This document shows, piece after piece, positions 16,736-37,647 of a stretch of DNA of 64,000 bases. Position 1 is the stretch's first letter; every line of letters starts with the position of its first letter. The notes under the pieces are model-generated. The model ran no database searches. It was not told where the DNA came from and saw only the letters and a program-made list of their open reading frames with translations. Position numbers and translations under genes: made by a program. This DNA is from Tethya wilhelma (lineage: Eukaryota > Porifera > Demospongiae > Tethyida > Tethyidae), in the NCBI GenBank assembly GCA_964030475.1, contig CAXIPT010000006.1:818354-882353 (forward strand), in the 5' to 3' direction.

Positions 16736-19700
16736 CTAGTCAGCTACTTCAATGAAGTCATTGATTTCAGTTTCCCTCTCCATTCCTAACCTGTCACTAT
16801 CTCTGGTGTAAGGGTTGAGACGAGTATAAGAGAATGTCGAGAGCCTTCGCTTTAGTTCAATATGTAGAGGTGGTTTTTGTTGTTTGTCCTTGTCCTTTCT
16901 AGTGTCATCAGATAACTCCTTCACAGATTCACTAATCTGTTTGCTTGGTGAATTGCTTTCATTTGAGGTTTGTTTGGGCACCAGTAAAGCTGAAGATGGC
17001 TCTGTGTTAGTGGCTGACTCATTCTCTACTACTGTGGCTTCTTCTCTTTCTCTTTCAGCAATTGCTGCTGTTGTTGCCTTTTCCATATTCTCTAGTAGTT
17101 GTTGGGTTGGCACAGGGTCTACCACACTGTATGTGACCACAGGATGAGGGACTAGGATGATTTCATGATCAGTGGGTTCTTGTTTGGTGAGTTGTAGCTT
17201 CATTTTGAGGATGAAGGAGTCAAGTCTGGTTTGTGTTTTCCTTGGAAGTACAAAAGCATACATGTGATAGGTCAAGATGGCTAGGAAGGTGATGAAAGCA
17301 ATGCTGGTTGAAGTGTAGGCTAGAGACTCTTGATTTCCAACACCAGCTTCCAGAATGTAGAGAGAACCAGCAGAAAAAAGAATAAGATTGAAAATAAATG
17401 ATAGTTCAAGTGCATCTAGTGGCCATGATTTGTAGACTCTTCCTGGCAGTAAGATCCTTAGTATCAAAAGAGAAACCAGTGTGTAAATGATTGACAGGAG
17501 GTTATTTCCAGGATCCTTACTGACATTGAAGGCAGCTACAATGTATAAGAAGGTACGAACTAAAAGTAGTAATCCAGCCCAATGGCGATGTTTGATATTG
17601 TAAGGAGCAAGATAAGCATCCATGAAGGGATAAAGTCTTGCATTCTTGATTAGTTTTACCATCCTATTCGGGCAACGTAGAAGCCACTGATAAGAGAAGA
17701 GGAAAGAAGTGTACACAACGCCCACCAGGAGAATAAGAAGAGCTACTAGAAAAAGAGGAATGTGTTTCCCTTTTAAGAAATCTATGTTTCCATCAATCAG
17801 CCATACGATTTCTTGTGAACCATTATGATTGTTCAGTGTTGCATAAGAGAGTGCAGATATGGTAACATGAAGACTTTTGGCATAAGAAAGTAAAATGAGA
17901 GTAGCTAATGTTGCCACTGGATTTGTTCTAATAAACATTCTAGCGCTAGCAATTCTTGTGGAGTATTCACAACTAATAATTACCATGGTAACTAAAAATA
18001 TTATGTAAATTGGGAAAGCAAGCTGCAGCCATTCTTTGACATAGCCATCCATTCCATCAAAGAAACAGGCTTCAAAGCCAAAGTCTAGGTTGAGCCATGC
18101 AATGAAGACAGTCAAGACATTCGGGGATTGAAATGGAAAGAATGTTGCACGATTTGTTGTAAGGATGTTAGCATAGAATACGAGTCCATTGATTGTTCCA
18201 ACAGCTACTGTCAAATTGCAAACTAAGATAAAAGCAACTAGTGCTATACCAGCTATAGCAAAGAAAATGAGTAGTGCTAGCCAGTTGTTTGTGCAAGACA
18301 AGCAATGTGAACTACCAAGAGTGAGACTGAGACCATCTTTACAAGACCCACAAAGTTTACCGCTACGACAGAAAGCACATTGTGCATCAGAACCATTGGA
18401 TGTGTTTAGGTTAATCCAGACTGGGGAGTTAGATGGATGACAGTAGTCAAATGGACAATGATTATAAGTAAGATAGTGAGACTCGTTTTCAGATTCATTT
18501 CTGTAGCTTATCCAGATGTTATCTTTCCTCATGACTGATGAGTTACTGAATGAACAACCATCTATATAGTCAGGATATATGCGTGGATCACATTCACAGC
18601 TGCAAATAAATGTTAGATTAGTTTCAGCAAAACCAGCTGGGCAAGTGCAAGGAAGAAATGTCACATTAACAATTTTATGATAGCTACATGGACCCCCAGC
18701 ATCCAACACTAGATCTTCCGAACCATGTGGGGAAGTTATGGTGAAGATTAATTCTGTGCAGTTTGAAGTTGTGCTCTGGATGTTCTGTCCTCTGACTAGG
18801 TCACCTTGTGGAGAAAGAGATGCTCTCACAGAAGATGGAACCGAATTTTTAACATGATCTACAGCAACAACAGATATTCTGAATGTCTGTCCCTTCTTAA
18901 CTTCATATGCCAGGATAGATTTGTTACAATTTGGTTGATCTCTTTCATCACAAAAGCATAACCCTACAGTTTCAGATGATACTTCAGATAAAAAATCACT
19001 TTCTTCAAGGTTGGTAATGTTAGTTAGATAAGATATTGCATCTAAGTTGGAGCCATTTTGATACTTGTCTTGTGCTTGAGGACGGACTGTACATCTGTCC
19101 AAGAGCCCTCCAAATATTGCTCCACCTGACATGTTTGCTGAGTTCCCTTCAAAGAAGGTATTTTGGGTGATTGACAAGTCATCATCTTGTATATGTGAGA
19201 CAATTTCTTGTAAGAAACAATCTTTAGAAAAAGGTTGATCGTCACAAGTGCTAGATTCATCTGAGATGAACAGTGCTCCACCATAGGCAGCTGAGTTGTT
19301 TGTGAAGTAGATTCCAAGATTTGGTAAGGATTGATTTGTGCTCTCATCTTTGAAATATGGAAATGCTTTTTTCACATGAAGTTTTGAATCCAGTTCCAAG
19401 CAAATTCCACCTCCTTCCTCAGCTTTGTTCTCAATGATCTTAAGCTGACCCCCTACTAGTCTTGCTACTGAGCCACTAGTTGCATAGATTCCTCCTCCCT
19501 TCTTGCTAGCAATATTCTCTAGAAATATGACGGTGCCATCAAAGTTCAGCTCACTCTGATAAGCATATATCCCTGCACCGGACAATGCTGTGTTGTGGGT
19601 AATGGTTGTATTCCCGTATGTACAAATCCTGCTGCCATGCATTAGAATAGCTCCGCCATATCCATTAATTGCAGCATTGCCCAGGATGTTGACTGTTCCA

Positions 19701-22700
19701 CTAAATGTGATCTCACTCTGCTGGAAAGCACTAATTGCTCCTCCTTCCTCTATTAATCCTGTGTCATTTATTCCATGAGAGTTATTCTCAATGTTTGTGT
19801 GTTTGTAAAATCTAATTTTGCTTTCAACAATATAAATAGATGCTCTATTGTCTGAAATTGTTATGTTGCCAGACAATACCAATGTGCTCTTCAGTGCATA
19901 GACTACACCTATTGTTGCTGAATTAGTTTTTATTTGAAGGAGACCATTCAAACTGATGGTCCTGTACCGAACATTAATTGCACCACCTTGGTTAGCTGCA
20001 TGGTTATGGCTGAAGATACTGTTGTTGATTTCATTGACACTATCAGTAGCACTACCAAGGAACAGTACACCACCATCATTGAGGGCTGTGTTTCTGATGA
20101 AGACACTGTTATTTATGGTAATACTACCACTATCTGTCCTTAATACACCACCTGAGCTAGCCATATTGTTTGTGAAATAGCTCCCTTCAATGCTAATATT
20201 ACCTCTGGCTGTCCATATTACCCCACCATCAGTATTAGCAGTATTGTGGCTAAAATCACATTGGCCGTCTATTCTAATACTACTATTGTCTACCCATATT
20301 ACCCCACCATCAGTATTTGCTGCATTGCTGCTAAAATTACATTGGCCATCAATACTAACACTACCACTGTCTGTCCATATTACCCCGCCATCTGTAATGG
20401 CTGTATTGCTGCCAAAGTCACACTGGCCATCTATGCTTATACTACCACTGTCTGTCCTTAGTACACCACCTAAGCTAGCTGTATTGCTACTGAAATCACT
20501 AGCATGTATGCTAATGCTACCTCTGACTGTCCATAATGCACCACCATCAGTACCTGCTGTGTTGATGCTAAAATTGCTACCATGTATTTCAATACTACCA
20601 CTGTCAGTCCCTGCTACCCCACCATTAATACCAGCTGTGTTACTACTAAACTCACTATCATGTATGTCAAGGTTCCCACTATCTGTCCATATTGCACCAC
20701 CATCTCTATCTGCTCTGTTGTTTTGTAAATTACTAACTTGGATGCTGATGTTACCATTCCTTGTCCATATTGCACCACCATCAGTAGTTACACTATTATT
20801 GTAAAAACTACTGCCATTTGATATAGTAATTGTACCACTGTCTGTCAGCATTGCACCGCCATCTCTATCTGCTCTGTTGCTAGTGAAATCACATGCACTG
20901 CGTATGTCAATGTTGCCACTGACTGTCCTTATTGCACCACCAAGAGAGTCTGCTGTGTTACTAATGAACTCACTTCCATATATGTTAATATTACCACTCA
21001 ATGTCCATATCGCACCACCATCAATAGCTACACTATTGTTGCAAAAGCTACTGCCATTGATAGTAATTCTACCACTGTCTGTCAATATTACACCACCATC
21101 TCTATTTGCTCTATTGTTAGTGAAATGACATGCACTATGTATGTCAATGTTGCCACTGACTGTCCTTATTGCACCACCAAGAGAGTTTGCTGTGTTGCTA
21201 CTGAAGACACTTTTTTGTCTGCTAATGTTACCACTGTTTATCTGTATTGCACCACTATCAGTAGCTACACTATTGTTGTGAAAACTACTGCTATTAATCA
21301 TACTTCTGCCATGATTGTCTGTCCATATAGCACCACCATCATCTGCTCTATTGCTACTTAAATCACTACCATGTATACTAATACTACCATTTTCTGTCCA
21401 TATAGCACCACCATTATCTGCTCTGTTGCTACTTAAATCACTACCATGTATACTAATACTACCATTGTATGTCCATATAGCACCACCATTATCTGCTCTG
21501 TTGCTACTTAAATCACTACCATGTATACTAATACTACCATTGTATGTCCATATGTATATAGCACCACCATTATCTGCTTTGTTGCTACTTAAATCACTAC
21601 CATGTATACTAATACTACCATTGTATGTCCATATAGCACCACCATTATCTGCTCTGTTGCTACTTAAATCACTACCATGTATACTAATACTACCATTGTA
21701 TGTCCATATAGCACCACCATTATCTGCTCTGTTGCTACTTAAATCACTATAATGTATACTAATACTACCATTATAATTGCTTGTGCATATAGCACCACCA
21801 TGATCTGCTCTGTTGCTACTTAAATCACTATAATGTATACTAATACTACCATTGCCTGTGCATATAGCACCACCTATTAAGCTAGCTGTATTACTACTGA
21901 AACCACTCTCATGTATGCTAATACTACCACTGTTTGTAAGTATTGCACCACCAGCTATAGCTGTGTTGCTACTGAAATTACTATCATGTATGCTAATACT
22001 ACCATGACTGTTTGTCCATATTGCACCACCACCAACACCTGCTGTGTTGTTATTGAAATCACTATCATGTATGCTAATACTACCACTAGTACTGTTTGTC
22101 CATATTGCACCACCACCAACACCTGCTGTGTTGTTATTGAAATCACTATCATGTATGCTAATACTATAGCTGTCAGTCCATATTGCACCACCATCTCCAT
22201 AATCAAGATCACCAGTATCATTACCATAGTGAGCTGCAATATTTTCCTCAAAGAGGCATTGAATTATATTAATATGGCAACAATAATCAAAGGCAACAAT
22301 AGCCCCTCCTAATGGTGCATATACATCTTGTCCTAAGGCCTGACTCAAGATTGGGTCCCAACCCTCTCTAAATGCAGTCAGAGAGATAAAAAAGCTCCTC
22401 TCAATAGTTACATTTGTGATATTCCTCAATTCTATTCCATGTCCATCTTGAAATCCACTTTCCTCCATCCTCAGTCGGTCTACTGATCTCACAGAGTTCT
22501 CCTGGCAGCCATTGAACTCTAGACCACTAACACTGACCTCAGATATGGCAGCAAAATCAAAGCCTGAGGAATTTGTGCATGTAACCATGGCAACTAAACT
22601 AGGGAAGGAGTTTGTAAGTTCAACTCGTAGGACCAGATTGCTGACATTTTGTATCTGAAGACGAGAATCAAGAGTGTGATGACCAGGCTCAAAGATCAAG

Positions 22701-22990
22701 GTAATGTTGGAGTCAATGGTAGTAGTTGGGGACTGGGCATATTGAATTAGAGTCAAGCAATCCTCATCCAAGAATGGGTCTGGAAATGATCCACTACCAG
22801 GGAATGTGCCTGAGCCCTCATCATCCACTAAGATGTTTTTAGGGGGGGTGACAGGAAGTGATCCACTACCAGTGGGTGTGGTTTCAGTGAGACAAGAGGT
22901 GTGGTCTACTACAATGTAGTATGTTTGAGCTGATACTGATGAAACCACTAAGGTGGCTATTAAGATAGTCAACTGCTGAATAAAGGCCAT
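16736..22990 (-). CDS. Full-length intronless Pmp-repeat multi-pass surface protein
   Basis: A single 2084-codon frame without introns. Residues 1-22 form a signal peptide (MAFIQQLTILI...SAQT). Next come an acidic Gly/Ser segment and a conserved N-terminal domain up to about residue 230. From about 260 to 1010 there are roughly thirty units of about 23 residues with the GGAI(W)T...GSISIHGSDFSSNTA pattern. These resemble the GG[A/L]I/FxxN repeats of chlamydial polymorphic membrane proteins, which fold as right-handed beta helices. A more diverged repeat region reaches about 1320. A Cys-rich stretch (about 1430-1560, with CPAGF and CGSCKDG) precedes seven or more hydrophobic helices at about 1570-1915. 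A charged cytoplasmic tail ends in MERETEINDFIEVAD. Many N-x-S/T sites suit an extracellular repeat region. A cell-surface adhesion or recognition role is inferred; similar architectures are known from sponge genomes without assigned function. The 5' flank is shared with the gene at 24266-26108. Confidence 0.9.
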   Translation of the reverse strand: MAFIQQLTILIATLVVSSVSAQTYYIVVDHTSCLTETTPTGSGSLPVTPPKNILVDDEGSGTFPGSGSFPDPFLDEDCLTLIQYAQSPTTTIDSNITLIFEPGHHTLDSRLQIQNVSNLVLRVELTNSFPSLVAMVTCTNSSGFDFAAISEVSVSGLEFNGCQENSVRSVDRLRMEESGFQDGHGIELRNITNVTIERSFFISLTAFREGWDPILSQALGQDVYAPLGGAIVAFDYCCHINIIQCLFEENIAAHYGNDTGDLDYGDGGAIWTDSYSISIHDSDFNNNTAGVGGGAIWTNSTSGSISIHDSDFNNNTAGVGGGAIWTNSHGSISIHDSNFSSNTAIAGGAILTNSGSISIHESGFSSNTASLIGGAICTGNGSISIHYSDLSSNRADHGGAICTSNYNGSISIHYSDLSSNRADNGGAIWTYNGSISIHGSDLSSNRADNGGAIWTYNGSISIHGSDLSSNKADNGGAIYIWTYNGSISIHGSDLSSNRADNGGAIWTYNGSISIHGSDLSSNRADNGGAIWTENGSISIHGSDLSSNRADDGGAIWTDNHGRSMINSSSFHNNSVATDSGAIQINSGNISRQKSVFSSNTANSLGGAIRTVSGNIDIHSACHFTNNRANRDGGVILTDSGRITINGSSFCNNSVAIDGGAIWTLSGNINIYGSEFISNTADSLGGAIRTVSGNIDIRSACDFTSNRADRDGGAMLTDSGTITISNGSSFYNNSVTTDGGAIWTRNGNISIQVSNLQNNRADRDGGAIWTDSGNLDIHDSEFSSNTAGINGGVAGTDSGSIEIHGSNFSINTAGTDGGALWTVRGSISIHASDFSSNTASLGGVLRTDSGSISIDGQCDFGSNTAITDGGVIWTDSGSVSIDGQCNFSSNAANTDGGVIWVDNSSIRIDGQCDFSHNTANTDGGVIWTARGNISIEGSYFTNNMASSGGVLRTDSGSITINNSVFIRNTALNDGGVLFLGSATDSVNEINNSIFSHNHAANQGGAINVRYRTISLNGLLQIKTNSATIGVVYALKSTLVLSGNITISDNRASIYIVESKIRFYKHTNIENNSHGINDTGLIEEGGAISAFQQSEITFSGTVNILGNAAINGYGGAILMHGSRICTYGNTTITHNTALSGAGIYAYQSELNFDGTVIFLENIASKKGGGIYATSGSVARLVGGQLKIIENKAEEGGGICLELDSKLHVKKAFPYFKDESTNQSLPNLGIYFTNNSAAYGGALFISDESSTCDDQPFSKDCFLQEIVSHIQDDDLSITQNTFFEGNSANMSGGAIFGGLLDRCTVRPQAQDKYQNGSNLDAISYLTNITNLEESDFLSEVSSETVGLCFCDERDQPNCNKSILAYEVKKGQTFRISVVAVDHVKNSVPSSVRASLSPQGDLVRGQNIQSTTSNCTELIFTITSPHGSEDLVLDAGGPCSYHKIVNVTFLPCTCPAGFAETNLTFICSCECDPRIYPDYIDGCSFSNSSVMRKDNIWISYRNESENESHYLTYNHCPFDYCHPSNSPVWINLNTSNGSDAQCAFCRSGKLCGSCKDGLSLTLGSSHCLSCTNNWLALLIFFAIAGIALVAFILVCNLTVAVGTINGLVFYANILTTNRATFFPFQSPNVLTVFIAWLNLDFGFEACFFDGMDGYVKEWLQLAFPIYIIFLVTMVIISCEYSTRIASARMFIRTNPVATLATLILLSYAKSLHVTISALSYATLNNHNGSQEIVWLIDGNIDFLKGKHIPLFLVALLILLVGVVYTSFLFSYQWLLRCPNRMVKLIKNARLYPFMDAYLAPYNIKHRHWAGLLLLVRTFLYIVAAFNVSKDPGNNLLSIIYTLVSLLILRILLPGRVYKSWPLDALELSFIFNLILFSAGSLYILEAGVGNQESLAYTSTSIAFITFLAILTYHMYAFVLPRKTQTRLDSFILKMKLQLTKQEPTDHEIILVPHPVVTYSVVDPVPTQQLLENMEKATTAAIAEREREEATVVENESATNTEPSSALLVPKQTSNESNSPSKQISESVKELSDDTRKDKDKQQKPPLHIELKRRLSTFSYTRLNPYTRDSDRLGMERETEINDFIEVAD
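21330..21860 (-). repeat. Near-identical 69-bp coding tandem repeats
   Basis: Within the Pmp-like gene, about seven consecutive 69-bp units encode GSISIHGSDLSSNRADNGGA followed by IWTYN. They are almost identical at the DNA level, with blocks such as TTGCTACTTAAATCACTACC repeated unit after unit. One unit has a 6-bp insertion adding Tyr-Ile. The units on either side are far more diverged, so this block expanded or was homogenised recently. Copy number may vary between alleles, and the assembly may have collapsed it. Confidence 0.9.
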
Positions 22991-23570
22991 TTTAGTTTCT
23001 TTTGTAATGTGTCCACACTATTATTATTATTATGTGTGTGTGTGTGTGTGTGATACAGTCATATATTATAACTGAGGTTATATATCATACATACGGTAGT
23101 AGGAATGGGCTGAACGTCCCATAGACACGATACAAAATGTTGTTGTTTATTGATTCTCATTGAAAGAAAGATAAGTCTTCAAATAATAATTATTATGTTT
23201 AGAGGCCTCCTCAGGACAGTCTTCTAACTATAAATCAACAAAACTTACAGAAACTTTTCAGAGTGCTCTGAAGAGAGTGCTAGTGAGAAGCCATAACAAT
23301 ATAATTTTGTTTTCTTTGTTCCTTACTTTGTGACTTTCTTGAACACGATTTTCTGACAAACAAAAAGCATTGAGCAAACTTTGATAGTATAGGGAGACTT
23401 CGTTTCATCTGTAGTACCTCCTTTTACACTCCTTTGCTGGCAAAAAGATAGCAAACAAAATCTAGGTAGCTTTATAACTATGTACAAAATACAATACTTT
23501 CTAAAGCCATTTTGAAGTAGGTAAAGATTGTCAATAGACCACATGGTTTATAATGCACATGCACAACATA
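22300..23570. repeat. Tandem segmental duplication, copy A (partner 25430-26710)
   Basis: The 5' part of the Pmp-like gene, the first codons (GCCATTTTAGTTTCTTTTGT on the plus strand), the (TTA)n and (GT)n tract, GATACAGTCATATATTATAA, the TACGGTAGTAGGAATGGG block and on to the GTCAATAGACCACATGGTTT block all recur in the same order at 25430-26710. The flanks are more alike than the coding repeats, so the gene and its upstream region were duplicated together. Confidence 0.85.
22991..23100 (-). promoter_or_regulatory. Conserved 5' flank of the Pmp-like genes
   Basis: About 100 bp before the start codon is nearly identical to 26109-26215 upstream of the neighbouring paralogue. It contains ATTATTATTATTA, a (GT)n run and TATATTATAACTGAGGT. 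Conservation of a non-coding flank fits shared promoter or 5' UTR function, but it may simply reflect recent duplication. Confidence 0.4.
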
Positions 23571-23580
23571 AAAAATATTA

Positions 23581-24264
23581 TCATACGTACGGTAGTACGT
23601 ATAGTAGGAATGGGCCGACTGCCCCATAGACACAATACAAAATGTTTATCACCATAAAAATCTAGCAAGACAAAGTTAAGCCTTCACACTTGCTCAGAAG
23701 CTCTTTTAGGCTGATTACCAACAGTATGTAAGGCCTAAAGCTTACAGAAACTTTCCAAAGCACTCGTAGAGAGCGCTAGTCAAAAGTTACACCCACGCAA
23801 TTTTGTTCTCACTTACTTACTTACTTACTTACTTCCTTACTTACTGACTTACTTGAACGCTGTTTCCAGACAAACAGAAGAATTTGAGCTAGCTTTGACA
23901 ACACAAAGTAACTTCTTTTCATCCGAACTAGGGTCTTTTACCCTCGTTTACTGCCTAAATGTGTTAAAATAAGAGCTAGAAAGCTTTGTAACTTCAGTAT
24001 AAATTTGTGTACTTCATGTGTAGCCATTTTTCTAGTAGAGTTCAAAGGTCGTTGTCTCATCCACGTGGCATTTAATGCGCATGCGCACTAGCCACATACT
24101 ACTACTAAGTATTTTTGTAGAGACTCCAGTCTCTGAGAGTCTCCTCACTGTAGTGTTGAAAAAGGTGAATGAACAAGTAGTAAAAATTTCAAAAAATAAG
24201 CAGTGTAGGAATGGGCAGTGCTGTAAAAAGTATTGGAACAAGGAATGGTCTCAATTTCGGCACA
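23581..24264 (+). mobile_element. GTAGGAATGGGC-family MITE, copy 2 (cut at a join)
   Basis: This copy starts with ATACGTACGGTAGTACGTAT and AGTAGGAATGGGCC, like copy 1, and follows the same internal order. It has a TTACTTACTTAC run near 23815-23850 and a perfect TGCGCATGCGCA palindrome at 24076-24087. It ends at the unknown base 24265 in the CAATTTCGGCACA block, where the truncated Pmp-like gene begins. The usual hairpin arm after that block is missing. Confidence 0.75.
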
Positions 24265-24265
24265 N

Positions 24266-26108
24266 CTCTATTGCTAGTGAAATCACATGCACTGTATATG
24301 TCAATGTTACCACTGGCTGTCTTTATTGCACCACCAAGTGAGTCTGCTATGTTGCTAGTGAAGATACTTTCTTGTATGCTAATATTACCACTGTTTAGCA
24401 GTATCGCACCACCATTAGTAGCTACACTATTGTTATAAAAACTACTGCAATTTATAGTAATGCTACCACTGTCTGTCCTTATAGCACCCCCAAGAGAGTC
24501 TGCTCTGTTTCTGATGAAGATGCTATCATGCATGCTAATGCTACCAAAGGCTGTCAATATTGCACCACCTTCCCTACCTGCCATGTTGCTACTGAAATTA
24601 CCTCCATGTATGCTAATATCACCAATGGCTGTCATTATCGCACCACTAACGGTTACTGCTGTGTTGCTACTGAAATAACTATCATGTATACTAATTTTAT
24701 TATTCCACGACATTATTGCCCCACCATAATTAGCAGCCGTGTTATTACTGAAAACAGTATTACGTATAGTAATCATATGCGAACATGAATCTCTTCCATT
24801 TATATGACTCCATATTGCACCACCACTGCCAGGTGTTGAGATTGTGCGTGTACCATAAAGATAACTAGATAATCCGATATTCTCACTGTCTGGCCAGTTT
24901 AAAATATTGGCACTAAATATATTTACACCATTTGCAGCGTTGCTTCGAAAATTACTCTCATGTATGCTAATATTCCCACAATCACACTGTGTACGTATTG
25001 CCCCACCAGTAACACCAGTATTGCTACTGAAATCACTGCCATGTATGATAATATTACAACTGTCTGTCCATATTGCACCACCACCACAATCAACATGACT
25101 GTTACAATAACTATTATTGAGGGCTATGTTGCTGCTGAAATTACAACCATGTATAATAATACTACCACTGTCTGTCCCTATTGCGCCACCACCCCACCTA
25201 GCTATGTTGCTTCTAAAATTACTACCATTTATGCTAATACTGCCTCTAGCTGTTATTGCACCACCATACCAAGCTGTGTTTTCACTGAAATTACTACCAT
25301 GTATGTTAATACTACCACTGTCTGTCCATATTGCACCACCATTCCCATAATCACCATCAACATTACTATTTCCCTCGAAAAGACATTCGGTAACCTCAAT
25401 GTCACTACTAAAAGCAACAATGGCCCCTCCTGATAGTACAGATCGCCTCTCCCGTGGATCCCAAGCCTCTCTAAATGCAGTGAGAGAGAGAAAAGAACTC
25501 CTCTCAAAATTTGCACTTGTGACATTCCTCAATTCCATTCCGTGTCCATTCTGAAATCTACAGTACTCCATCTTCAGTTGGTCTACTGATCTCACAGTGT
25601 TCTCTCGGCAACCAATGAACTCTATACCACCAACACTGACCACGGATATGGTGTCAAATTCAAATCCCGTGGAATTTGTGCATGTAACAAAGGCAACTAA
25701 ACTAGGGTAGGAGTTTGTTTGTGCAACTTGTAAGACCAGATTATTGACATTTTGTATCTGAAGACGAGAATCAAGAGTGTGATGACCAGGCTCAAAGATC
25801 AGGGTAATGTTGGAGTCAATGGTAGTAGCTGGGGACTGGGCATATTGAGTTAGAGTGAGGCAATCCTCATTCAAGAATGGCTTGGCATGATTGTCTGGAA
25901 TTGATCCACTACCAGAGAATGTGCTTAGTAACTCCATATTATCCAAGGGGGTGTGGTTGGTGGGTGTGGCTGTAAGTGATCCACTATCAGTGGGTGTGTT
26001 CTCATAGAGACAGTAGGTGTGGTCTGGTACAATATGGTATGTTTGTGCCGACACTAATGAAACCACTAAGGTGACTATTAAGATCGTCAACTGCTGAATA
26101 AAGGCCAT
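24266..26108 (-). CDS. Pmp-repeat surface protein, N-terminal part (cut at a join)
   Basis: The frame starts at the ATG at 26108 with MAFIQQLTILIVTLVVSLVS, nearly the same signal peptide as the full-length paralogue. It continues for about 614 residues: the acidic Ser/Gly segment, DSRLQIQNV, CRENTVRSVDQL, and then Pmp-type repeats (GGAIWTDSGSI, HGSNFSENTA). One unusual insert around residues 380-430 (SANILNWPDSENIGLSSYLY region) lacks repeat character. The frame stops at the unknown base 24265 and runs into a MITE. The Cys-rich, membrane and tail regions are therefore absent here. The matching tail fragment at 14115-14460 also ends at a join next to the same MITE family, so the two may be halves of one gene. 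Role inferred as for the paralogue. Confidence 0.85.
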
Positions 26109-26710
26109 TTTAGTTTCTTTTGTAATGTGTCCACACTATTATTATTATTATTGTGTGTGTATGTGTGTGTGTGTGTGTGATACAGTCATATATTATAACT
26201 GAGGTCATACTATGTATATTATCATACATACGGTAGTAGGAATGGGTTGAACGTCCCATGGCCATAGACACGATACAAAATGTTGTTGTTTATTGATTCT
26301 CATTGAAAGACAGATAAGTCTTCAAATAATTATGTTTAGAGGCCTCCGACCTCAGGACAGTTTTCTAACTATAAATCAACAAAACTTACAGAACTTGAAC
26401 TTTTCAGAGTGCTCTGAAGAGAGTGGGAAGCCGTAACAATACAATTTTGTTTTCTTTGTTCCTTACTATATGTGGCTTTCTTGAACAAGATTTCCTGACA
26501 AACAAAAAGCATTGAGCAAACTTTGATAGTAAAGGGAGACTTCGTTTCATCTGTAGTACGTCCTTTTACACTCGTTTGGATTGCAGGCAAAAAGATGGCA
26601 AACGAAATCTAGGTAGCTTTATAACTCTATGTACAAAACACAATACTTTCTATAGCCATTTTGAAGTAGATAAAGATCGTCAATAGACCACATGGTTTAT
26701 AATGTGCATA
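25430..26710. repeat. Tandem segmental duplication, copy B (partner 22300-23570)
   Basis: Collinear with copy A, including the 5' coding region, the start codon flank, the microsatellite and the GTAGGAATGGG-type block near 26232. It is followed at 26833-26945 by a solo MITE tail that copy A lacks. Confidence 0.85.
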
Positions 26711-26945: not shown

Positions 26946-27370
26946 TGTATTATTATGTATAATACCGTAAATTTTCATAGTTCAAAATTTTTTGCATGAC
27001 GCTCAGCATTTGCAAAAATTAAAATCTGCAAAAATTTTAAACCTGAACTTTTTAACACGACTAACCGTTAAAAATTATTTTCGTATGTACCATATTTATG
27101 AAAATTTTATTTACAAAATATTTTCAACAAAAATATTTTCCAATCTATGATAGTATAATAATTATTGGGAATATTGCATAAACTTATCAACAAATTAAAA
27201 TTTAATGAATGTAATTTCAGTTCATTTGAGTATAAATTTACGTTATTAAAATAGCACAACCATGATCGAATTAGCACATGCTCTAATACGCCAACTTTTT
27301 TTTTAACTTATAGTCTTCAGATCTCAAAAGCTACAGTGTTTTATAAGATTCTACACGTCAAATTTCAAAA

Positions 27371-27559
27371 TACACTATTAAAACAAGGGTGTAAACACGA
27401 CATTTAAAAACTATACCCTAGGGTGTAAATCTTGCTGTTGCTGTGGTTACCTTTGATATTTTCACACCTTATTTCCTCCCTAGGGTTTAATTTTACTCCC
27501 TGGGGTATAGTTTTTAAATGAAAATGACCTTTATTTACACCCCTGTTTTAACAGTGTAA
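27371..27559. mobile_element. MITE of about 190 bp with TACACTRTTAAAACA termini
   Basis: TACACTATTAAAACAAGGGT at the left mirrors ACCCCTGTTTTAACAGTGTA at the right. A second inner pair also mirrors: TTTAAAAACTATACCCTAGG against CTGGGGTATAGTTTTTAAAT. No coding frame is present. Confidence 0.75.
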
Positions 27560-29183
27560 TCTCGATTGATGAACGTAAATACCTTCCATTTTGACTCTAA
27601 AACTGTTGTTCTTCAGTTGCAAACATGCAGACAGACAGACACACACACAGACAAAACAACTACTGTAATCCTTACCTTTGTTGTGTTTCTATCAGTTGTG
27701 AGTTTCTCGTGTGATTTTCTCCTCTTCTTTTAATACTTCCAATGAATTATCAGTCTGAGAGAATAAATTGATAATTATAACCACTGTAAGTTTGTATTTT
27801 TCTTATGATATTAAAAGATTGTAACCTACCTTTGAACTGGGATAATGATCAAGCAGCTATAGGCCTGAGTAGACTGCACTGAGTGCAACTCAATTCAATT
27901 AAGACTGTAAGAATTAATCACGTTGAATGAAATTGATGCCTTAATAACACTTATTAGACATTAGCAATCTGTGGTTGTAGTTTATTATACTATGCATTTT
28001 AGATTAATGTTATAACAAATTATAATAATTTGTACCTTTATACCTTTGTTGTTGTTTTCTTATCAGTTGTGAGTTTCTCTCAGTGGTTGGTCCAGGACCT
28101 GTTTTCTAAAATGCTTTCACTGCAAATCTAGATCTGTGGTCAACCTAGCTACTCAGTGTAGCTAGCTGGCTTGTCTCAGTACTAGCTAGCTGCTGCTAAA
28201 GTAACTTGTCACTTTAAGATTCTTTCTCTCTATTGATTTTAATTTGTGAGAATTTAAATCAGTTTTCATCAGGACCAATGTAATTACTGATCACTGACAA
28301 TCCTGTTAGGTAGTATATATAAATTTGGGGTTAAATTTATTTAATTTAAGCTGCAGGGATTCTGGTCTAGGGAAGCAGTACATGGTAATGTGATTATGTC
28401 CATACTACTGCTACAGTACACGACTATTACATACTTCCATTGATATGTCCTGTAATATTCCATTAGGCAAATGTTCCGTGTGGTTAAGGTGTGCGTGTAT
28501 CGTCTAGTAAAACTACACACATAGAAACCTACTACTAACATCATTATCCCCACAGTGACTACATATTAACATGATTTTCTAGGAGGTCAACATTATATAG
28601 CTATACTGTATATACCTTGTAGGGCGCGTGGCATAAATTTAAAATGAAGTGGTCAATTGTGGCTACATGACTTGGGTGCAATGTATCCAATTGTGGCCCG
28701 TGTATAGAGTTAATTTGTAGTGGTGATGTTTACATGACCATTACATGTCTAGGAATAGTATTATGTATGTGTGCATGCATGCATGGATTTTCATATCCAT
28801 ACAACGTTGGACATGTGACCATTACTTGCCCTCCATAATATTGGATGTGGTCAATGTATGTACGCATGGCTTCGTTCTGTGGTAGTTAAGCCTCAGCGCG
28901 TGCATAGCACGTGCAGAGGGTTACGGTAGTCGTTTTGTGTGTGTGTGTGTGCGTGTGTGTGTGTCTGTTACTGGATAATCTGAAGAACGGCAGCTCAAGA
29001 GTCAAAATAGAAGGTACTTATGTTCATAAATCGAAGTTATCTTGAAATTTTTTGTTTGGCATCATGCAAAACACTGTAGTTTTTGAGATCTGACGCTTTT
29101 GTGCTTCTCTGAGCGCTTTTTAGCTTCTTAGCTTCGAGACCACACCCATCACGTATAGTGTGCGTTATCTAGGAATGCAGTAA
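27560..29183. other. Non-coding stretch left of the KDZ element
   Basis: No gene is supported. Minor features are two similar TTTGTTGTGTTTCTATCAG / TTTGTTGTTGTTTTCTTATC stretches with GTGAGTTTCTC near 27675-27710 and 28040-28080, and a GT run at 28938-28965. Confidence 0.45.
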
Positions 29184-29286
29184 CACCCGAACGTTACACG
29201 AATTTTACCACATAATAATACTGAACAAGGTAGTGAAATACGTCGTCAAATACTACATCACAAGCCCTCGTGACCACCTCATGAGT
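29184..29286 (+). repeat. KDZ left terminal inverted repeat
   Basis: 103 bp, the exact inverse of 36869-36971. It ends inward at CTCATGAGT, after which the two sides diverge. It lies 57 bp before the start codon of the cargo gene and may carry its promoter. Confidence 0.95.
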
Positions 29287-29343
29287 CATGAGTGGATCCT
29301 ACTGTATAGTAGTACAGTACCATGGCAGTAGCCTGAAGCTAGT

Positions 29344-32051
29344 ATGAGTGAGACCATAGGTGAGACCAGTGGCAGTACTAGTGGGAGATTCTCTTTCAAT
29401 GAACAGCAGAAATCTATTCTCAAGAAATGGTTTCATGAGAAAGGAATTCAGTCAGTTGGAAAACAAAATTCAACTGTTATAAAACAGATTGCTTGTGAAA
29501 TAGGAGTCCAAGAGCATCAAGTGAAGGTTAGCTAGCTAGTTATGATGAACTGATTGCATGGTATTTGAGTATGTATATAGGTTTTGGCAATAAGTACAAC
29601 TTTCATGAGGGAAGAGGCCCAGGAGCCATAGGGTTACCTGATACTGGGGTATACTGATGTCTAGGTCAGAAGTTCAGCAAGTGCAGCTGTGAAACAAGGG
29701 TCGCTGAGTCTCAAGTTGTTGATTGTGGCTCGTCTGGCAGAAATTCTAGATCTGCAGAGAGCATGTAACTGTAAGGCGAAAAAATGTATTTCCAAGTCCT
29801 TCCTCCGCATGAACTGCATGACTGCTTCTGCTTTGCCACCGTGACTTTGTTTGGAAATATATCCATGCTTGGAAAGAGATGAACAATCCGTTTTTTAGTT
29901 CCTTTGCAGGTGCTTCAAATGATACCAATGACATAATCCAGTCGATAGAGTATATATACTGTCAATTTTATGATTGTTTACAATGTACCCAAACTTAGGG
30001 ACATGTGCCATCTGTTGAGCCTGGGGATGAAGCTAAGCTACACCTATCTATTCCCAGTATTTTATGCATCCTTAGATATTTGTTGACATGCAGGGGAGGA
30101 GTAGACCTCACCAGAGTGTTGGTAGAGCCAATCAGAATATTATAGTGAATGATGATGTCATAATTGTTAGACATAAGTCTATCATTCGTCTACAAGCTAC
30201 ACCCTTTTCCACCCCTGATCTACGACAGGGGAAAATATCCTGTGGGGGGTGCTGGGGTCTGGTCAGATCTACAACAGCAATTACATCACACTACTAGAAG
30301 GATCTAGTTCTAAAGAGCAGTCTATCATTGAGTCTTTGACTGTAATAATTATTACAATGCTTTACCCAACCACTCAAGTGTGTGGTGGATTTTATCGTTA
30401 ATTCAATTATGTAACCTGACAATATAGAATCTTTGTGTGTGAGCTACATGTGACATAATAATTCAGTCAATTGAGTATTTAGTATCTTTATTATTAAATT
30501 TTGAGTAGTGAGAGTAGTGTCGGCTCTAGAAAATGCATGCATGAGCTGGTGCACGTGCTAGGGATATTCTTTTGTAGCTTGGATAAATTTTGGTTTTGTG
30601 TCAAGAATTTATCCTGGCATGTATAGTGTGTAAGATGTGACTTTATATTAAGTATATGTATGATTCACACAGAATTGGATAACTGCTGAAAATACAAGAG
30701 CTAAGAAGCAGGAAATTCCAACCACATCATCTGGTAGTCAGAATTCTGTGGAAGGAAGGTAGCTATTCCTTTACCTTTCTCATGCTTAATAACCGTGATA
30801 CATATATTTGATTGTATTGGACTCTTAATATGTGAATATAGCTAGGGCAAATGCCCTGAAATCAAATTTATCTGACCTTCAAATTCTAGTGCTTTGCTCA
30901 TAGATGCCTGTTGTGTACATAACTATTAATAATATTTTATTGTATAATTATATAATATGTGGAAAAATTTTTACTGGTCCCAATTTTCATTGTAAAGGTT
31001 AATTGCCTTTGCAAATCACACATCTCTTTTATATTTTCACAGTCTAATCATGACTGCAAAAAGCAAAAAAGATTTCCTGCTATAAAATTTTAAGTATACT
31101 ATGTAGACGTGCATTGTACGCACCCTAAGTACTACATGTAGGTTTTTGTGTGTTATCTTCATATAAGTTTTCCACATAGCGTAATGGTGAAAAAAACTCA
31201 CAAAAGAACCAGTTTTCAGCTCTTCTGTAGCCATGAGTCAGAGAAAGTGTCTGGAGGTTTGTACATACAGTATGTGACAAAGTGTTGTGGGTAGATTCTA
31301 AAATAATTATTATAGTGTTATATCCAGAAAATAACCATGTATTAAATTATATCATGCAGAAGATGGTATTTGTATATACATGTCAGTAGTTATACTGCTG
31401 CAATATCAAAGCAACTAGCTGCTATCTCTGGTTCTAGCACAGTGGAGACAGCTTTTATCAACACTATTAACAAGATGCACACACATAATAATTTACACAT
31501 GCACGTTAACTCACCCACCCCATCCCTGCTCTGTTTAGATGGATCAGAAAAAATGTCTGAGCTCTCACGTCGCTGGTCTACCCTACCATCTCCAGAAAAG
31601 CGACAGTGGAAAGAAAAAGCGAGCAGTGGTGGATTTTGGACTGAATGGTCTAAAAGAAGTGTTGTCCGAGACCTAACCTCAGCTATAGAGGACAATGTAA
31701 GTGTAGTATGTAGATGTACTTAGTCTAGTATTAGTCTGATGTAAGTGTACATTGACTTTTGCTTTCAGCTTAAGAGCTTGTCTACCCTTGGATATGAAGG
31801 GTTTGCAGTGGTCTTAGATAAGTCAACTGGCACTGACAAAGTGATGTGTGGATCTGAATGTGCACATGACTTTCTCACTGCAGAAGAGGCTAGAGGTGAA
31901 GGAGTGGAAACAAATTTTTTCAAATATGTGTGTGGTACGTCACCCATGCACACACACACAAACACAAGCTGTGTTTAGTGCTCAAATTGCCATCTCTTTT
32001 TCTCATGATTTATACAACTACATGTATGATCTTTCTACATGTGTACACACT

Positions 32052-32089
<38 letters not shown>

Positions 32090-32278
32090 NNNNNNNNNNN
32101 NNNNNNNNNNNNNNNNNNNNNNNNNNNNNNNNNNNNNNNNNNNNNNNNNNNNNNNNNNNNNNNNNNNNNNNNNNNNNNNNNNNNNNNNNNNNNNNNNNNN
32201 NNNNNNNNNNNNNNNNNNNNNNNNNNNNNNNNNNNNNNNNNNNNNNNNNNNNNNNNNNNNNNNNNNNNNNNNNNNNNN

Positions 32279-32332
<54 letters not shown>

Positions 32333-32755
32333 CATCTGTATACCTAAACAGCAACAGTGGAAAAAAGAAGTCAAAACCTTACAATGATATGTTGACAGAA
32401 GTTCGAGCTGGGCTGAAAGAGAAATACTGTAAGCAGCATTCAGTATGCATAATAATATTGCTATCTTAAATTGTCAACATTATTCAATTTAATAGGTACT
32501 GTGAGTGGAAGTTCTCGAATTCCATATACTCATCTGGAAACAATGCAGTATGCTGTAGTAGGTTTGCCTGATGGTGTTCAGTTCAAACAACCTGCTATGT
32601 ATTCAAGACCTGAACTGAGGCGAGTATACAACTGTTTGGATAAGATACAGTTTCTCCCCTTAGCAAGTCATACAGAGTCTAGTGAAGCACAATCTAGCTC
32701 TAGATCAGCTCCTGAAATTATTAATCATGCAAATTCTTCCTCTGATGATATCTAG
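29344..32755 (+). CDS. Homeodomain and HMG-like cargo protein of the KDZ element
   Basis: Exon 1 (29344-29526) starts MSETIGETSGSTSGRF and holds two helices of a homeodomain (FSFNEQQKSILKKWF; IKQIACEIGVQEHQVK). Exon 2 (30673-30758) joins in phase 0 and completes the recognition helix as VKNWITAENTRAKK, matching the VKxWFxNxRxKxK plan with Ile for Phe and Glu in the linker. A short exon at about 31229-31254 would link in phase. The next exon (31539-31696) has an HMG-box-like end (MSELSRRWSTLPSPEKRQWKEKA). Exons 31769-31934, 32333-32428 and 32496-32755 all join in phase to a TAG stop, giving a segment around GYEGFAVVLDKSTGTDKVMC and a Ser-rich tail. The 189-base N gap falls in an intron CA repeat. 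A DNA-binding nuclear role is inferred: it could regulate transposition, bind the TIRs, or be a captured host gene. The middle of the model is uncertain. Confidence 0.7.
32055..32332. repeat. (CA)n microsatellite containing a 189-base N gap
   Basis: CA units flank the N run at 32090-32278 on both sides. The right part abuts the CAG acceptor of the exon at 32333. The real repeat length is unknown. Confidence 0.95.
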
Positions 32756-32942
32756 CTACTGTACATGCATGTATGAACATGATCATCATGCAATCTATGA
32801 CCTATTTATGATCATATTGCATGCATGCTCTGTTACACTATATCCTAGATGTGTAATGTATAATACAATGTCATGTATTAATTATTATAAATTATTATTG
32901 TTTCGAATTATAAACATGAATTCAATAAAAATTAATAATACA

Positions 32943-35900
32943 TCAATAATTACATACATATTCACATGAAGAATCATCACAATCAGAATCTGACAATGAC
33001 ACAAAAGAGTCTTCTGAATCTGCATAAGTCACATAAGACTCTGTGTCACTAATATTGCTCTCATGGTCACTATCTTGGGGTATACTTGAATACTCTTGAG
33101 CATGGTCCATGGGCAGTTGCACTGCCAAAGAGAGTGGCATAGGATTTATTTGACATTCTTTTGCTACTGAGAGTCTTCTTGCTTGTTCTACAAATAAAGT
33201 GTGAGAAATTTCATTCCAATAAGTTTGAACTGTGAGTCTTGTCAATTGATCATAAAGCTTCAGTTTTTGTAAGGATACTTGACTAGCATTCATCAATGCT
33301 GCCAACTTTCCAGCTTCAACATGAGATAAAGACTCAATACATGGTGAAATAAATGTCACATACAGGTCACTTGACCATAGCTGTTGTCCAGAATCATACG
33401 TAAGCAAATCATTGTGGTCACCAAGAATGCTAACCAATTCTGTGGTGGTCTGGTCCAGTTGACAAGAGAAGAAAGAAGCTATCCTGATTAAGTCTGAAAT
33501 AACAATTTGTTTCTCTTCCATAGACCTTTCTTTGATGTTGCAAAGTTCAACAAGTCTTCTCTGAATAGAAGCTGGAAGGATACCACTAGCATCTGTCGTA
33601 GTATATGCATGTTCACTAATCCAAAAGTTTAAATGAAGATCAAGTACCTCCTTTACAGTAGCCTGAGGACTTTCACCATTTTGTAACTAGTTCTTGATAT
33701 CGAGAGAGAAATTTTTTGACTTGTTTTGTGCAAGTTTGGATTCGTTTGCTGACTCTAGAAGCTTGCTTTTGACCACCTACATAATTATATGTATGTATAG
33801 CCATAAAGACATAATATTGTTACAATCATGATGTGATGCATGCATGCTAATGTTAATGCAAACAAATTAAGTTATTACCAGCATGATGAATGAGCATTGT
33901 TAAGTAAAAGATCCGTTCCTTTGCTGTTATCCTCATCTGCTCTTTGATTTTTTGTTGCTCAACTGTAGTAACAATCTTCATGGCCTCTTTGTACTCTTCC
34001 ATGTGGGGTTCCCACCTGACACTGATGCTATTCTCAAGTTCAAACTTCTGGACTATATGCTCTTGTCTGTGAATAAACAAGTCATTAAAACTGTCTGTGA
34101 ATATAAGACTGGTATTCCAACAGCATATACCTGCTAAGGTAGTGAATAGTGTCAGCAATTGTTTGAGAAGAGACTTTGTTGGATGTCAAATCCTGTACGA
34201 GTTTAGTCCACTTGTTTCTGTGTGAATAATATAATACACTTATATTTTGAACATGCATACCATAACAACATACCGCATTTCTGTTAACTTAGAAAGCAAT
34301 CGGACATATTCAACCCTCCAGGTGTTTGCTACAAATTTGATAAGAAAAAATAACGTGATAATAGGTGCACAATACCATGTGCATGAATGATCGAAGTATG
34401 TTTTAGAATGTTTCAACAACATACACAGGTTTGAGTCACTTTTTCCTGAAAGTCTCTCAACTTCGTCTGCTTGTAAGCTATCTATAATTTGGGGTAGATC
34501 AGATTCAAGCAAATTGTACTGTGTTGCAATGCTGTTGATCTCCTTTGTAGCTATTGTATACTGCTTGACAGCGGTACAATACCGTTCAATGCATGCTCTC
34601 TCTGTAATAGATATATACAGTCGATAGAGTATAATCATTATATAGCACAATTATAACCATCAACAGTCATATTACCTAGCCTTGACTCCTTCAAGACACA
34701 ATAATGATTCAAAGCATCTGTGAGGACATCCACTCTATTGGCAGCACACATTTCTTTGGTCATTGAAGAAAACTTTCCTAGGAAGGACCAGAGACGTTCA
34801 ACATTCTCTCCATCAGTGAGACCAAAACCTGCCAGATTTCTTGGATTATACTTGTACTGACAGCTTGCTTCGTGGGCATACGAATGAAAAATCGGAACAG
34901 CAATTACACTGAATCGGGATAACAATGGTTTGTATTTCTCAGGGTTGGCCTATATGGAACAAGATGGAAATTCACAGTTAAATTTTTAGGTTCAACACTC
35001 TGCACAATGTCATACTTTCCAATGTGCTTCCAGCTTGCAACCGACATCATATAGCAAGTTCACTTGCACAGATAGAGTGGATTGCTTGTTCAGTGATGAC
35101 AAAAGGAAATCAGCATAGCCTAACCTAATTTGTAAATATATACGTGACAATGCGCATGTATAATATTTGGATCCTAACCCACAATCTATAATGATGCAAT
35201 CATCATATATATGTAGCTGCTGCATACACGTGCATTTCTACCTTTCACCATGTTTGAGGCTCAACATCTTGAGAGGGAAGTCGTGGCGGCATATAGCTCC
35301 TAACACACCAGTTTCATCCAATCCTTGGTAACGTGTTCGAGATCGGAGAGCATCTCCAGCTTTAAAGTCACTGCACGTGCTCTATACACCATCCATTATA
35401 ACAGTAAATACAAATATATACTGTGTAGTGCATATATACCTGTGCAATAGTAACTGCAATAGGTCTTTGCTCAGATAGAATGTAGCTATCAACCTTATTT
35501 TGATCAGCACAAGTAGATGAATGAAGAAAAGGCTTGTCATCCTTTCTTAAATGTCCAGCTTTTTTCCAACGGCACAAACGAAAATTATCATCAACTGACA
35601 TTATCACTGGATCTAGTGAAGAACCCTAATAACATCACATTTGTGAGTACATGCATGTACAACAAAATATTTGGTTACATTGTACCTTAGGGCAAGCAGG
35701 ACATTCTTTTGATACATAGTGAATAGTAGAATTTACCACATTTTGAAATATCTGGAGATAATTACCATCATCATGTAATAAGCCTGCAATGGTCCATTCA
35801 TGAGCAATACTAACCTGTAGATTGGAAAACTTGTCCTCAGTTGATCATAGAAATCTCTATCCTGCAAATAGCACAAAGCAGTAATAGGAATATTATGGTT

Positions 35901-36785
35901 GTTGCAATTAGAAGCATACTTTAGGCTGTTTTCTGCCAGTCAACTGGATGAATTTAGATATAGAACATTGGCATTCAACAACAAGGTTGTGGATGATGTC
36001 CATCAATTGCAAAGTGAATGCAAGCTTTGGCTTGGTAGGTGTGGCTGGCCACAGTCCCAGCTGAAACAAACGTGCAGACATGGACATACAGCCACAAAAG
36101 GTGACCTTAACTCCGTGATGCTGACCTTCATTACAATAACAGGAAAAGCAGTAATGTGGTTATAGTGTACTAAACAGAACATACCATTCAGTGATACAAT
36201 GATCACTTTCTCTTGATAGGTGGTCTCACAACTATGCACAAGTGGTAGCACAACACCTTCAAATGGTGATACTACATACCGTCCTTGTGTCCACATTTCA
36301 GGTACATGAAAGACATCAAGGTATTGATGTCTGCTTGAGCAACATTCTTCACAGAAAAATGCCATGTACGAGCAATCTAGGCAACGATGCGTTGCCTTAT
36401 TGGGGCAAAACATACAAAGTTGATCTTTAGGCATGGCTAGATTTGTAGTATAGCCCTTGATTAAACTTGGAAGTACTCCTTTCCACGAATCAACTTCTCT
36501 TGAGTGATTGATTTGTCTCATACGTCTTCGTTTCGGGGGGCTTGGATCAATATCTGATTCAGAGTCCTCATTGTCATCTTTGTTATCAATACCATCTCCA
36601 CCAAAATCCATACCAATATCACAGTCACTGGCATCATTTTCAACGTCTTGTGATTGATTTTTAGCTCCAGTCTCAGCATGGGATTCAAGAAGAGAAAATA
36701 CAGGTTTAGTTCGGTGCCCAACAGATGAAGTTCGTTTCCCTTTTCCTTTAAGAAAGTTAGAGAGAAGTTTGTGGTTTTCCAGCGT
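32943..36785 (-). CDS. KDZ-family transposase, multi-exon, probably frameshifted
   Basis: About 13 exons. The first (36785-36185) encodes an acidic/basic segment (SPPKRRRMRQ) and a Cys-rich zinc domain (CMFCPNK, CLDC, FFCEECC). The second (36125-35920) continues as HHGVKVTFCGC and QLGLWPATPTKPKLAFT, the CxC-domain signature of KDZ transposases. Later exons carry KECPACPK (about 35750-35686), SVDDNFRLCRWKKAG (35625-35440), DETGVLGAICRHDFPL (35381-35242), YDVGCKLEAHWK (35124-35016) and IFHSYAHEASCQYKYNPRN plus GFGLTDGENVERLWS (34949-34676). These are the conserved blocks of the RNase-H-like catalytic core. The C-terminal part ends in an acidic Ser/Asp tail. Two joins fail: a one-base frame change near 33676-33700, and an exon junction near 35815-35755 that I could not connect in frame. 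The start codon is unresolved; the first in-frame Met is at 36611. It would act in the nucleus on the element's TIRs. Confidence 0.85.
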
Positions 36786-36868
36786 CTGAGGGGCATTTCA
36801 GGGTGTCAGTCAATGGTCAATGTGCTCTCTCAAAGCTCTTTCTTCTACAGCATAGTATTATACCATAT

Positions 36869-36971
36869 ACTCATGAGGTGGTCACGAGGGCTTGTGATGT
36901 AGTATTTGACGACGTATTTCACTACCTTGTTCAGTATTATTATGTGGTAAAATTCGTGTAACGTTCGGGTG
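36869..36971 (-). repeat. KDZ right terminal inverted repeat
   Basis: The exact inverse of 29184-29286 over all 103 bases. It lies just upstream of the transposase coding exons and may hold their promoter. Confidence 0.95.
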
Positions 36972-37647
36972 AAGAAAAATAATGTAGCGGGTGGGCTGTA
37001 ACTAGAGTAACTAAGCTATAAATGGTGCAGAAATAAGCGCCCAATATTAATGCATGCATCTATAGCTATTCTAACTGTAGGAAACAGTTTAGCTAATACT
37101 TATTGTCCATAATAAGAAGCGCTTAGCTTCTTTCCCACACAAATTTCATCACAAATTTATTAAACAATTTACAATACATTCATTCATTATTATGCACAGA
37201 TAAACAGCTCCTGGCATAGCCCAGTGATTCTGCAACACTGTGGGCCATCTTCTGATCATCTGGAAGAGATTTCTTTCTGCTAGAAGTGTTTAGTTCATGA
37301 ACAATGCATTGTTTTTTGTTGCACATTAAATATGCAAGAGATGCACAACAGCAGCTGCATCATGTACTCATCAGAATAATTAATCTATGAACATGGCAAC
37401 GCATCCCGTGTACTAACAGGAAAGAAGCTAGCCATGGCTGACATAGCTGCATTCAAACGCTGATATCTCAGCAATAGAAGCAGCCCCACCCGTAAAATCA
37501 CGTCTGCAGCTCGCCAAGGTGTGCCCCTCCCCATTGGTGCAAAAAAAAATTCATTTCGCGCACGTGTCGTGAATTACACTACAATCGCCGATTACCACAA
37601 ATAAAGTTTTACTACATCTGGTCGGTTTTCCAAAATTGGGTCACATN
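36972..37647. other. Non-coding flank right of the KDZ element
   Basis: AT-rich DNA without a supported gene, ending at an unknown base at 37647 beside a MITE copy. No target duplication of the KDZ element was found at its left edge. Confidence 0.5.

Follow-up and report, generated by a model that had tools for sequence, protein, structure and literature searches.

Transposons of the Kyakuja-Dileera-Zisupton (KDZ) group are known to carry accessory genes in fungi (PMC12477816), and the fungal elements have been linked to genes of the TET/JBP family (PMC12730594), as a prediction made from the letters of the DNA alone for the locus described here had also stated. In the PIF/Harbinger transposons, which likewise carry two genes, both proteins are needed; in Harbinger3_DR, the Myb-like protein attaches to subterminal DNA, and joint nuclear entry of the two proteins depends on it (PMC9710019). 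Here we describe a KDZ element of the demosponge Tethya wilhelma, identified in a stretch of 64,000 nucleotides (assembly GCA_964030475.1, contig CAXIPT010000006.1, positions 818,354 to 882,353 of the forward strand; hereafter the window), that encodes, along with its transposase, a protein containing a homeodomain-like region, an HMG box and an I-repeat of the TFII-I (GTF2I) family. By analogy with PIF/Harbinger, we consider it probable (about 0.6) that this element represents a two-gene KDZ lineage in which the second protein assists transposition through DNA binding.

The element is a DNA transposon of the KDZ group with two genes that spans 7.8 kb (29184-36971). It is bounded by perfect terminal inverted repeats (TIRs) of 103 bp, one at 29184..29286 on the side of the second gene (plus strand, starting with CACCCGAACG) and the other at 36869..36971 on the side of the transposase (minus strand), which are 100% complementary to each other and end in CACCCG..CGGGTG; either TIRs or CA..TG ends are expected of KDZ elements. 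These boundaries are real because the terminus CACCCGAACGTTACACG recurs at other loci of the same genome, namely at C7:4753560 and C1:16822654, the latter a lone TIR, and, with one change, at C108:27068 (C1, C2, C7 and so on denote other contigs of this genome, from which all comparison loci are taken). The transposase domain, PF18758, is found at 34638-34949 (E = 2e-19; 70.6 bits against the Pfam cut-off of 26.6, and 72.8 bits in the genome-wide search). The second gene, here called gene 2, is enclosed by the two TIRs and lies tail to tail with the transposase gene, exactly the arrangement that had been predicted.

Gene 2 consists of seven exons on the plus strand (29344-32755) that join in phase from an ATG at 29344 to a stop codon at 32755 and encode 341 amino acids; all six introns have GT-AG borders. 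Exon 1 (29344..29526), which is conserved in the related elements E4 (on C1) and E5 (on C188), encodes the N-terminus and, from 29386, homeodomain-like helices 1 and 2 with the start of helix 3. Exon 2 (30673..30758) supplies the recognition-helix part, NWITAENTRAKK, up to about 30708, and a linker; the two exons meet in phase 0 as originally claimed, so that EHQVK is followed directly by NWITAENTRAKK. When the sequence between exons 1 and 3 was shuffled 2000 times with its dinucleotides preserved, a peptide resembling that of exon 2 appeared in the right place and phase 5 times, the pattern having been defined after the real exon had been seen. The first part of the HMG box is encoded by exon 3 (31180..31256), and its second part, to about 31621, by exon 4 (31539..31696), which continues into a linker. 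Exon 5 (31769..31934) corresponds to a middle region of about 60 residues that is conserved in E4 and E5 by profile comparison and has no convincing Pfam family in the scan of the gene-2 protein. An alignment of this region in C8 and C7 was made by eye and is not counted, the profile of the window gene, E4 and E5 having failed to find it there. The first helix of the I-repeat (about 32383-32428) lies in exon 6 (32333..32428), and its core (to about 32665), together with the C-terminal tail and the stop codon, in exon 7 (32496..32755). Of all junctions of the gene, the one at the start of exon 6 is the least secure; it adjoins an assembly gap (N, 32090-32278) that falls within a CA microsatellite in intron 5.

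The C-terminal I-repeat is, judging by sequence comparison and structure prediction, the best-supported domain of gene 2. The original prediction was right to list a homeodomain-like region and an HMG box, but it missed this most secure domain in exons 6 and 7. Pfam recognises residues 261-308 as a GTF2I-like repeat (PF02946; 3.3e-7, 31.0 bits against a cut-off of 27). In searches of the PDB, all ten matches at E <= 1 belong to the TFII-I family with each of three queries: the window I-repeat alone (best E = 7.9e-5), a profile that combines it with those of E4 and E5 (best 1.4e-5), and a five-member profile that adds the repeats of a third element, E6, and of an unlinked gene on C7 (best 2.8e-10; the E4 sequence in this profile contains a three-residue error). 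The AlphaFold model of exon 7 has a mean predicted local distance difference test score (pLDDT) of 72, which rises to 92-94 over residues 21-50. Its Foldseek comparison with the PDB places GTF2I domains at ranks 1-10 of 15 (E 0.0012-0.13, probability 0.96-1.00), with no match at E 0.001 or below and a probability of at most 0.05 for the remaining five. The tandem I-repeats that are a trait of the TFII-I family were not found: gene 2 has one repeat, and the genome search yields a single match at each of seven loci.

The HMG box was noticed in the original prediction as a later exon resembling the end of such a domain. This reading of exon 4 holds, but the box is fuller than described, its start being supplied by exon 3. 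For the window protein alone, the Pfam match (residues 121-144, 0.74) is below the cut-off, whereas an exon 3/4 profile built from the window gene and E5 only retrieves HMGB1 at 3.4e-4, with HMG proteins making up 13 of the 15 matches at E <= 1. When E4 and the C7 paralogue are added to the profile, the matches improve to 2e-5 for UBF and 2.4e-5 for HMGB1.

The homeodomain of gene 2 is likely to be present but divergent and atypical. Exons 1 and 2 do join into a homeodomain-like region with a recognition-helix part, as predicted, although the Pfam match (residues 15-73, E = 0.0011, 19.2 bits) stays below the cut-off of 22.9, and the recognition-helix exon is found only in the window and in one near-identical, broken copy on C108. 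Compared with the PDB, exons 1-2 of the window gene alone match engrailed (0.001) and the entry 2da4 (0.0043). The exon-1 profile has as its top match a designed repeat protein (3e-5), no stretch of which passes on its own; the atypical homeodomain 2da4, which we take to be that of HDX, is its best homeodomain match (E = 0.0012), and PBX1 is found at 0.06. The structure prediction that had been suggested as a check covers exon 1 alone and yields a low-confidence model (pLDDT 60) in which two helices and one turn of a third are formed; its 25 fold matches all have E above 1 and include 10 entries whose titles name a homeodomain or homeobox, along with 9 more that are presumably homeodomains. 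That the single-protein matches to the homeodomain and the HMG box remain below the Pfam cut-offs could be taken to mean that both readings are over-interpreted and that the seven exons are a chance assembly. We find this hardly credible, given that the paralogues align over all parts of the protein, that the HMG profile retrieves HMG proteins, and that the I-repeat is backed by both sequence and predicted fold.

Other elements of the same genome keep gene 2, as the check proposed with the original prediction had called for. In E4 (C1:11095887-11104638), the two ends of which match in 15 of their first 18 bases, the KDZ gene and gene 2 occupy opposite strands, and the homeodomain-like, HMG, middle and I-repeat blocks match those of the window gene at 50-65%; the flanks CGCAAAT and CACAAAT match in 6 of 7 positions, a figure given with no chance control. 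The parts of E5 are spread over copies on C2, C13 and C188, with the end CACCCGAACCTTGCC located at C2:15568118 and C13:674180. The C2 copy combines a KDZ gene with a convergent gene 2; homeodomain-like, HMG, middle and I-repeat exons are present on C188, and HMG exons only in the DNA examined on C13. In two more elements, E6 (C8) and E7 (C12), the I-repeat is convergent to KDZ; that of E7, with 24.3 bits, does not reach the Pfam cut-off. A search for the gene-side TIR of E6 was negative.

A search of the whole genome gives 42 matches to KDZ at E <= 0.01, which define 27 loci, two of which (C4 and C1:23168304) consist of matches below the Pfam cut-off only. I-repeats are found at nine loci, each with a single repeat, and HMG parts at six of them. 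Five of the nine lie 1.5-2.8 kb from a KDZ locus and are convergent to it; under a binomial model, the chance probability of five within 4 kb is 2e-12, a figure that presupposes independent loci although the loci are related. Of the remaining four, C188 is a short contig and the twin of C2, and C8:1852825 is a twin, at 91% identity, of the E6 I-repeat region; C7:6106678 and C39 complete the set. Gene-2 sequence of any kind is present at six of the 27 KDZ loci, C13 included.

Gene 2 is under purifying selection and recurs in other KDZ families. For the window gene and E4, compared over 209 codons, the proportions of nonsynonymous (pN) and synonymous (pS) differences are 0.30 and 0.78, and identity at codon positions 1/2/3 is 0.64/0.74/0.42; the corresponding values for the window gene and the C2 copy over 132 codons are 0.35 and 0.77, and 0.59/0.70/0.38. 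Since synonymous sites are saturated, we claim no more than the direction, which is that of long-lasting purifying selection. The close pair formed by the window gene and the C108 copy differs at 1 of 321 exon bases and 31 of 1235 intron bases (Fisher 0.008); because intron 3 is identical (0 of 282), this test was set aside in favour of the distant pairs.

The genes at C7:6106669-6107797 (minus strand) and C39:99767-100974 (plus strand) contain HMG and I-repeat parts and have no KDZ match nearby: the nearest on C7 is 1.35 Mb away, C39 has none, and the 9 kb around the C7 gene contain no convincing one. They are possibly host genes or remnants and could be host relatives of a gene that was captured by the element and travels with it as a passenger, without a role in transposition. 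This explanation is quite improbable and is already disfavoured by the conservation of position, orientation and protein sequence across the window element, E4 and E5, by the same orientation of the I-repeats in E6 and E7, and by pN values well below pS. It is further opposed by a small unrooted tree of ten I-repeat sequences and 74 columns, in which the KDZ-linked repeats are set apart from the rest (0.79) and the unlinked C7 and C39 repeats form a group (0.96) apart from three human repeats. The label of cargo that had been given to gene 2 rightly marks it as a second gene in a KDZ element but understates its standing, since the gene is conserved and is met with again in diverged elements. 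Between the two roles originally offered, a second transposition protein or a captured host regulator, we favour the former.

A number of observations weigh against the reading of gene 2 as the helper gene of a two-gene KDZ lineage. No whole copy of gene 2 was found outside the window among E4, C188, C2 and C108. The spliced alignment of E4 contains one stop and leaves a stretch of the HMG box unplaced, the C188 copy of E5 also has one stop, and the C2 copy lacks the homeodomain and the first HMG exon. The near-identical C108 copy comprises exons 1-4, with exon 1 broken, and the near-identical partial copy at C7:4753560-4755381 is truncated to the transposase end, with no match to the gene in the DNA examined beyond it. 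At 21 of the 27 KDZ loci there is no gene-2 match, 18 of these having been read only to about 1.5 kb and those on C3, C7 and C77 further. The exon-1 pieces of E4 and E5 alone match no homeodomain family in Pfam, and no convincing candidate for the helix-3 exon was found when sought in either element. The block CATAATAATA, discussed below, does not occur in the gene-side end of E4. In the transposase gene, most exons are readable, and the junction near 35815-35783 leaves an uninterrupted frame unestablished. Finally, a target-site duplication, which in KDZ elements is 7 or 8 bp, is absent from the window element, the left flank being TGCAGTAA and the right flank AAGAAAAA. The right flank (36972-37600) belongs to another repeat, 85% identical to C1:11102057-11102689, which begins exactly at the end of the element, and this could explain the loss of the duplication.

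Homeodomains are suited to AT-rich sites, HMG boxes bend DNA, and I-repeats bind DNA. If gene 2 encodes a transposition helper, the simplest mechanism and the one that we favour, its protein would bind the ends of the element, with the homeodomain placed at AT-rich sites such as CATAATAATA in the TIR, the HMG box might bend the DNA, and the protein as a whole could recruit or import the transposase in the way of the PIF/Harbinger Myb-like protein. In the left TIR, CATAATAATA occupies 29211-29220; the tip CACCCGA and CATAATAATA at exactly base 28 are common to the window TIRs, the transposase-side end of E4, and E5, which makes this block in diverged TIRs a candidate binding site. The main rival explanation is that gene 2 acts outside the transposition complex as a modulator of transcription or silencing and so maintains expression of the element, as has been proposed for TET/JBP in fungi. 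It draws on the nature of the recognised domains, all of which are known from transcription factors or chromatin proteins, and on the TET/JBP genes of fungal KDZ elements, which are thought to counter silencing (PMC12730594); yet the Pfam scan of the gene-2 protein gives no convincing enzymatic domain. The present results do not separate expression control from end binding, and we rate this alternative as rather unlikely. Should the element indeed depend on a conserved second protein that combines three DNA-binding domains, this KDZ lineage would be a two-component transposon with parts that can be assayed.

The TFII-I I-repeat, a domain of genes deleted in Williams-Beuren syndrome, is here placed in a mobile element, and the origin of TFII-I thereby becomes a question testable by phylogeny. 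We put forward tentatively, as a doubtful proposal, that the I-repeat of vertebrate GTF2I, GTF2IRD1 and GTF2IRD2, and perhaps also the HDX homeodomain, descend from a KDZ accessory protein by exaptation. The direction of transfer cannot be read from the unrooted tree, which is compatible both with an ancient uptake by KDZ elements of a host gene like those on C7 and C39 and with a derivation of these genes and of TFII-I from elements. For telling capture from exaptation, the C7 and C39 genes offer the best local standard of comparison. A protein database search returned none of 1926 candidates at E <= 0.01, a result that says little given the uncertain share of eukaryotes in the database; 14 pattern matches in viral contigs were also considered, none of which is a relative.

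The transposase gene (32943..36785, minus strand) has approximate exons. Its N-terminal part (36003-36785) is possibly zinc-binding and is followed by central exons (35625-34676) and by C-terminal exons that reach to 32943; a match resembling a B-box in 36003-36797 scores 21.3 bits, short of the Pfam cut-off of 27. Candidate acidic catalytic motifs are readable in this protein.

Around the element, the relative of the right-flank repeat at C1:11102057-11102689 sits within gene 2 of E4. On the left, a repeat with inverted arms extends over 27317-29175, and a part of it (28886-29175) recurs on C8 (756692-756969) and on C68 (46445-46714). Further upstream, on the minus strand, two adjacent and related genes appear as long open frames of 2093 and 648 amino acids (16736-23017 and 24189-26135) and contain numerous short repeats of the form GGAIWTDSGSISIHGSNFSSNTA.

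That KDZ elements can carry accessory genes is already known; what is new, within the literature searched, is a gene with homeodomain-like, HMG and I-repeat parts. Among the matches listed, no title or abstract opening joins KDZ with GTF2I, a homeodomain or HMG, in agreement with the earlier statement that no KDZ element with a homeodomain partner had been described, and none of these three terms occurs in PMC12730594.

Vertebrate TFII-I proteins contain several I-repeats. The repeat of gene 2 is homologous to those of GTF2I, GTF2IRD1 and GTF2IRD2 in sequence and predicted fold, whereas gene 2 has one repeat, joined to HMG and homeodomain-like parts, and resides in a transposon. GTF2IRD2 itself is fused to a hAT (Charlie8-like) transposase, of a superfamily other than KDZ (PMC10641963). 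HDX, the highly divergent homeobox protein, has an atypical homeodomain of 68 amino acids and is listed as an orphan without invertebrate orthologues (PMC2211742); its likeness to gene 2 is weak, engrailed being slightly better with the single sequence. A precedent for exaptation of the I-repeat is provided by KolX of the Kolobok transposons, a second transposon protein with a domain that is reported to have been taken into vertebrate P2X7 (PMC9587614), although both domain and transposase are unrelated to those of the window element. The KDZ and PIF/Harbinger transposons are also among the closest described systems. Like other KDZ elements, that of the window has a PF18758 transposase; it carries an accessory gene, as is known for KDZ in fungi (PMC12477816), and it shares CA..TG termini with Kyakuja and TIRs with Zisupton (PMC12730594); in place of a TET/JBP dioxygenase gene, it carries the homeodomain-like/HMG/I-repeat gene. 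With PIF/Harbinger it shares the presence, next to the transposase gene, of a second gene whose product has about 300-400 amino acids and a DNA-binding domain (PMC9710019), but its transposase belongs to another superfamily, the DNA-binding domains of gene 2 are different and multiple, and the helper function demonstrated there is here proposed by analogy.

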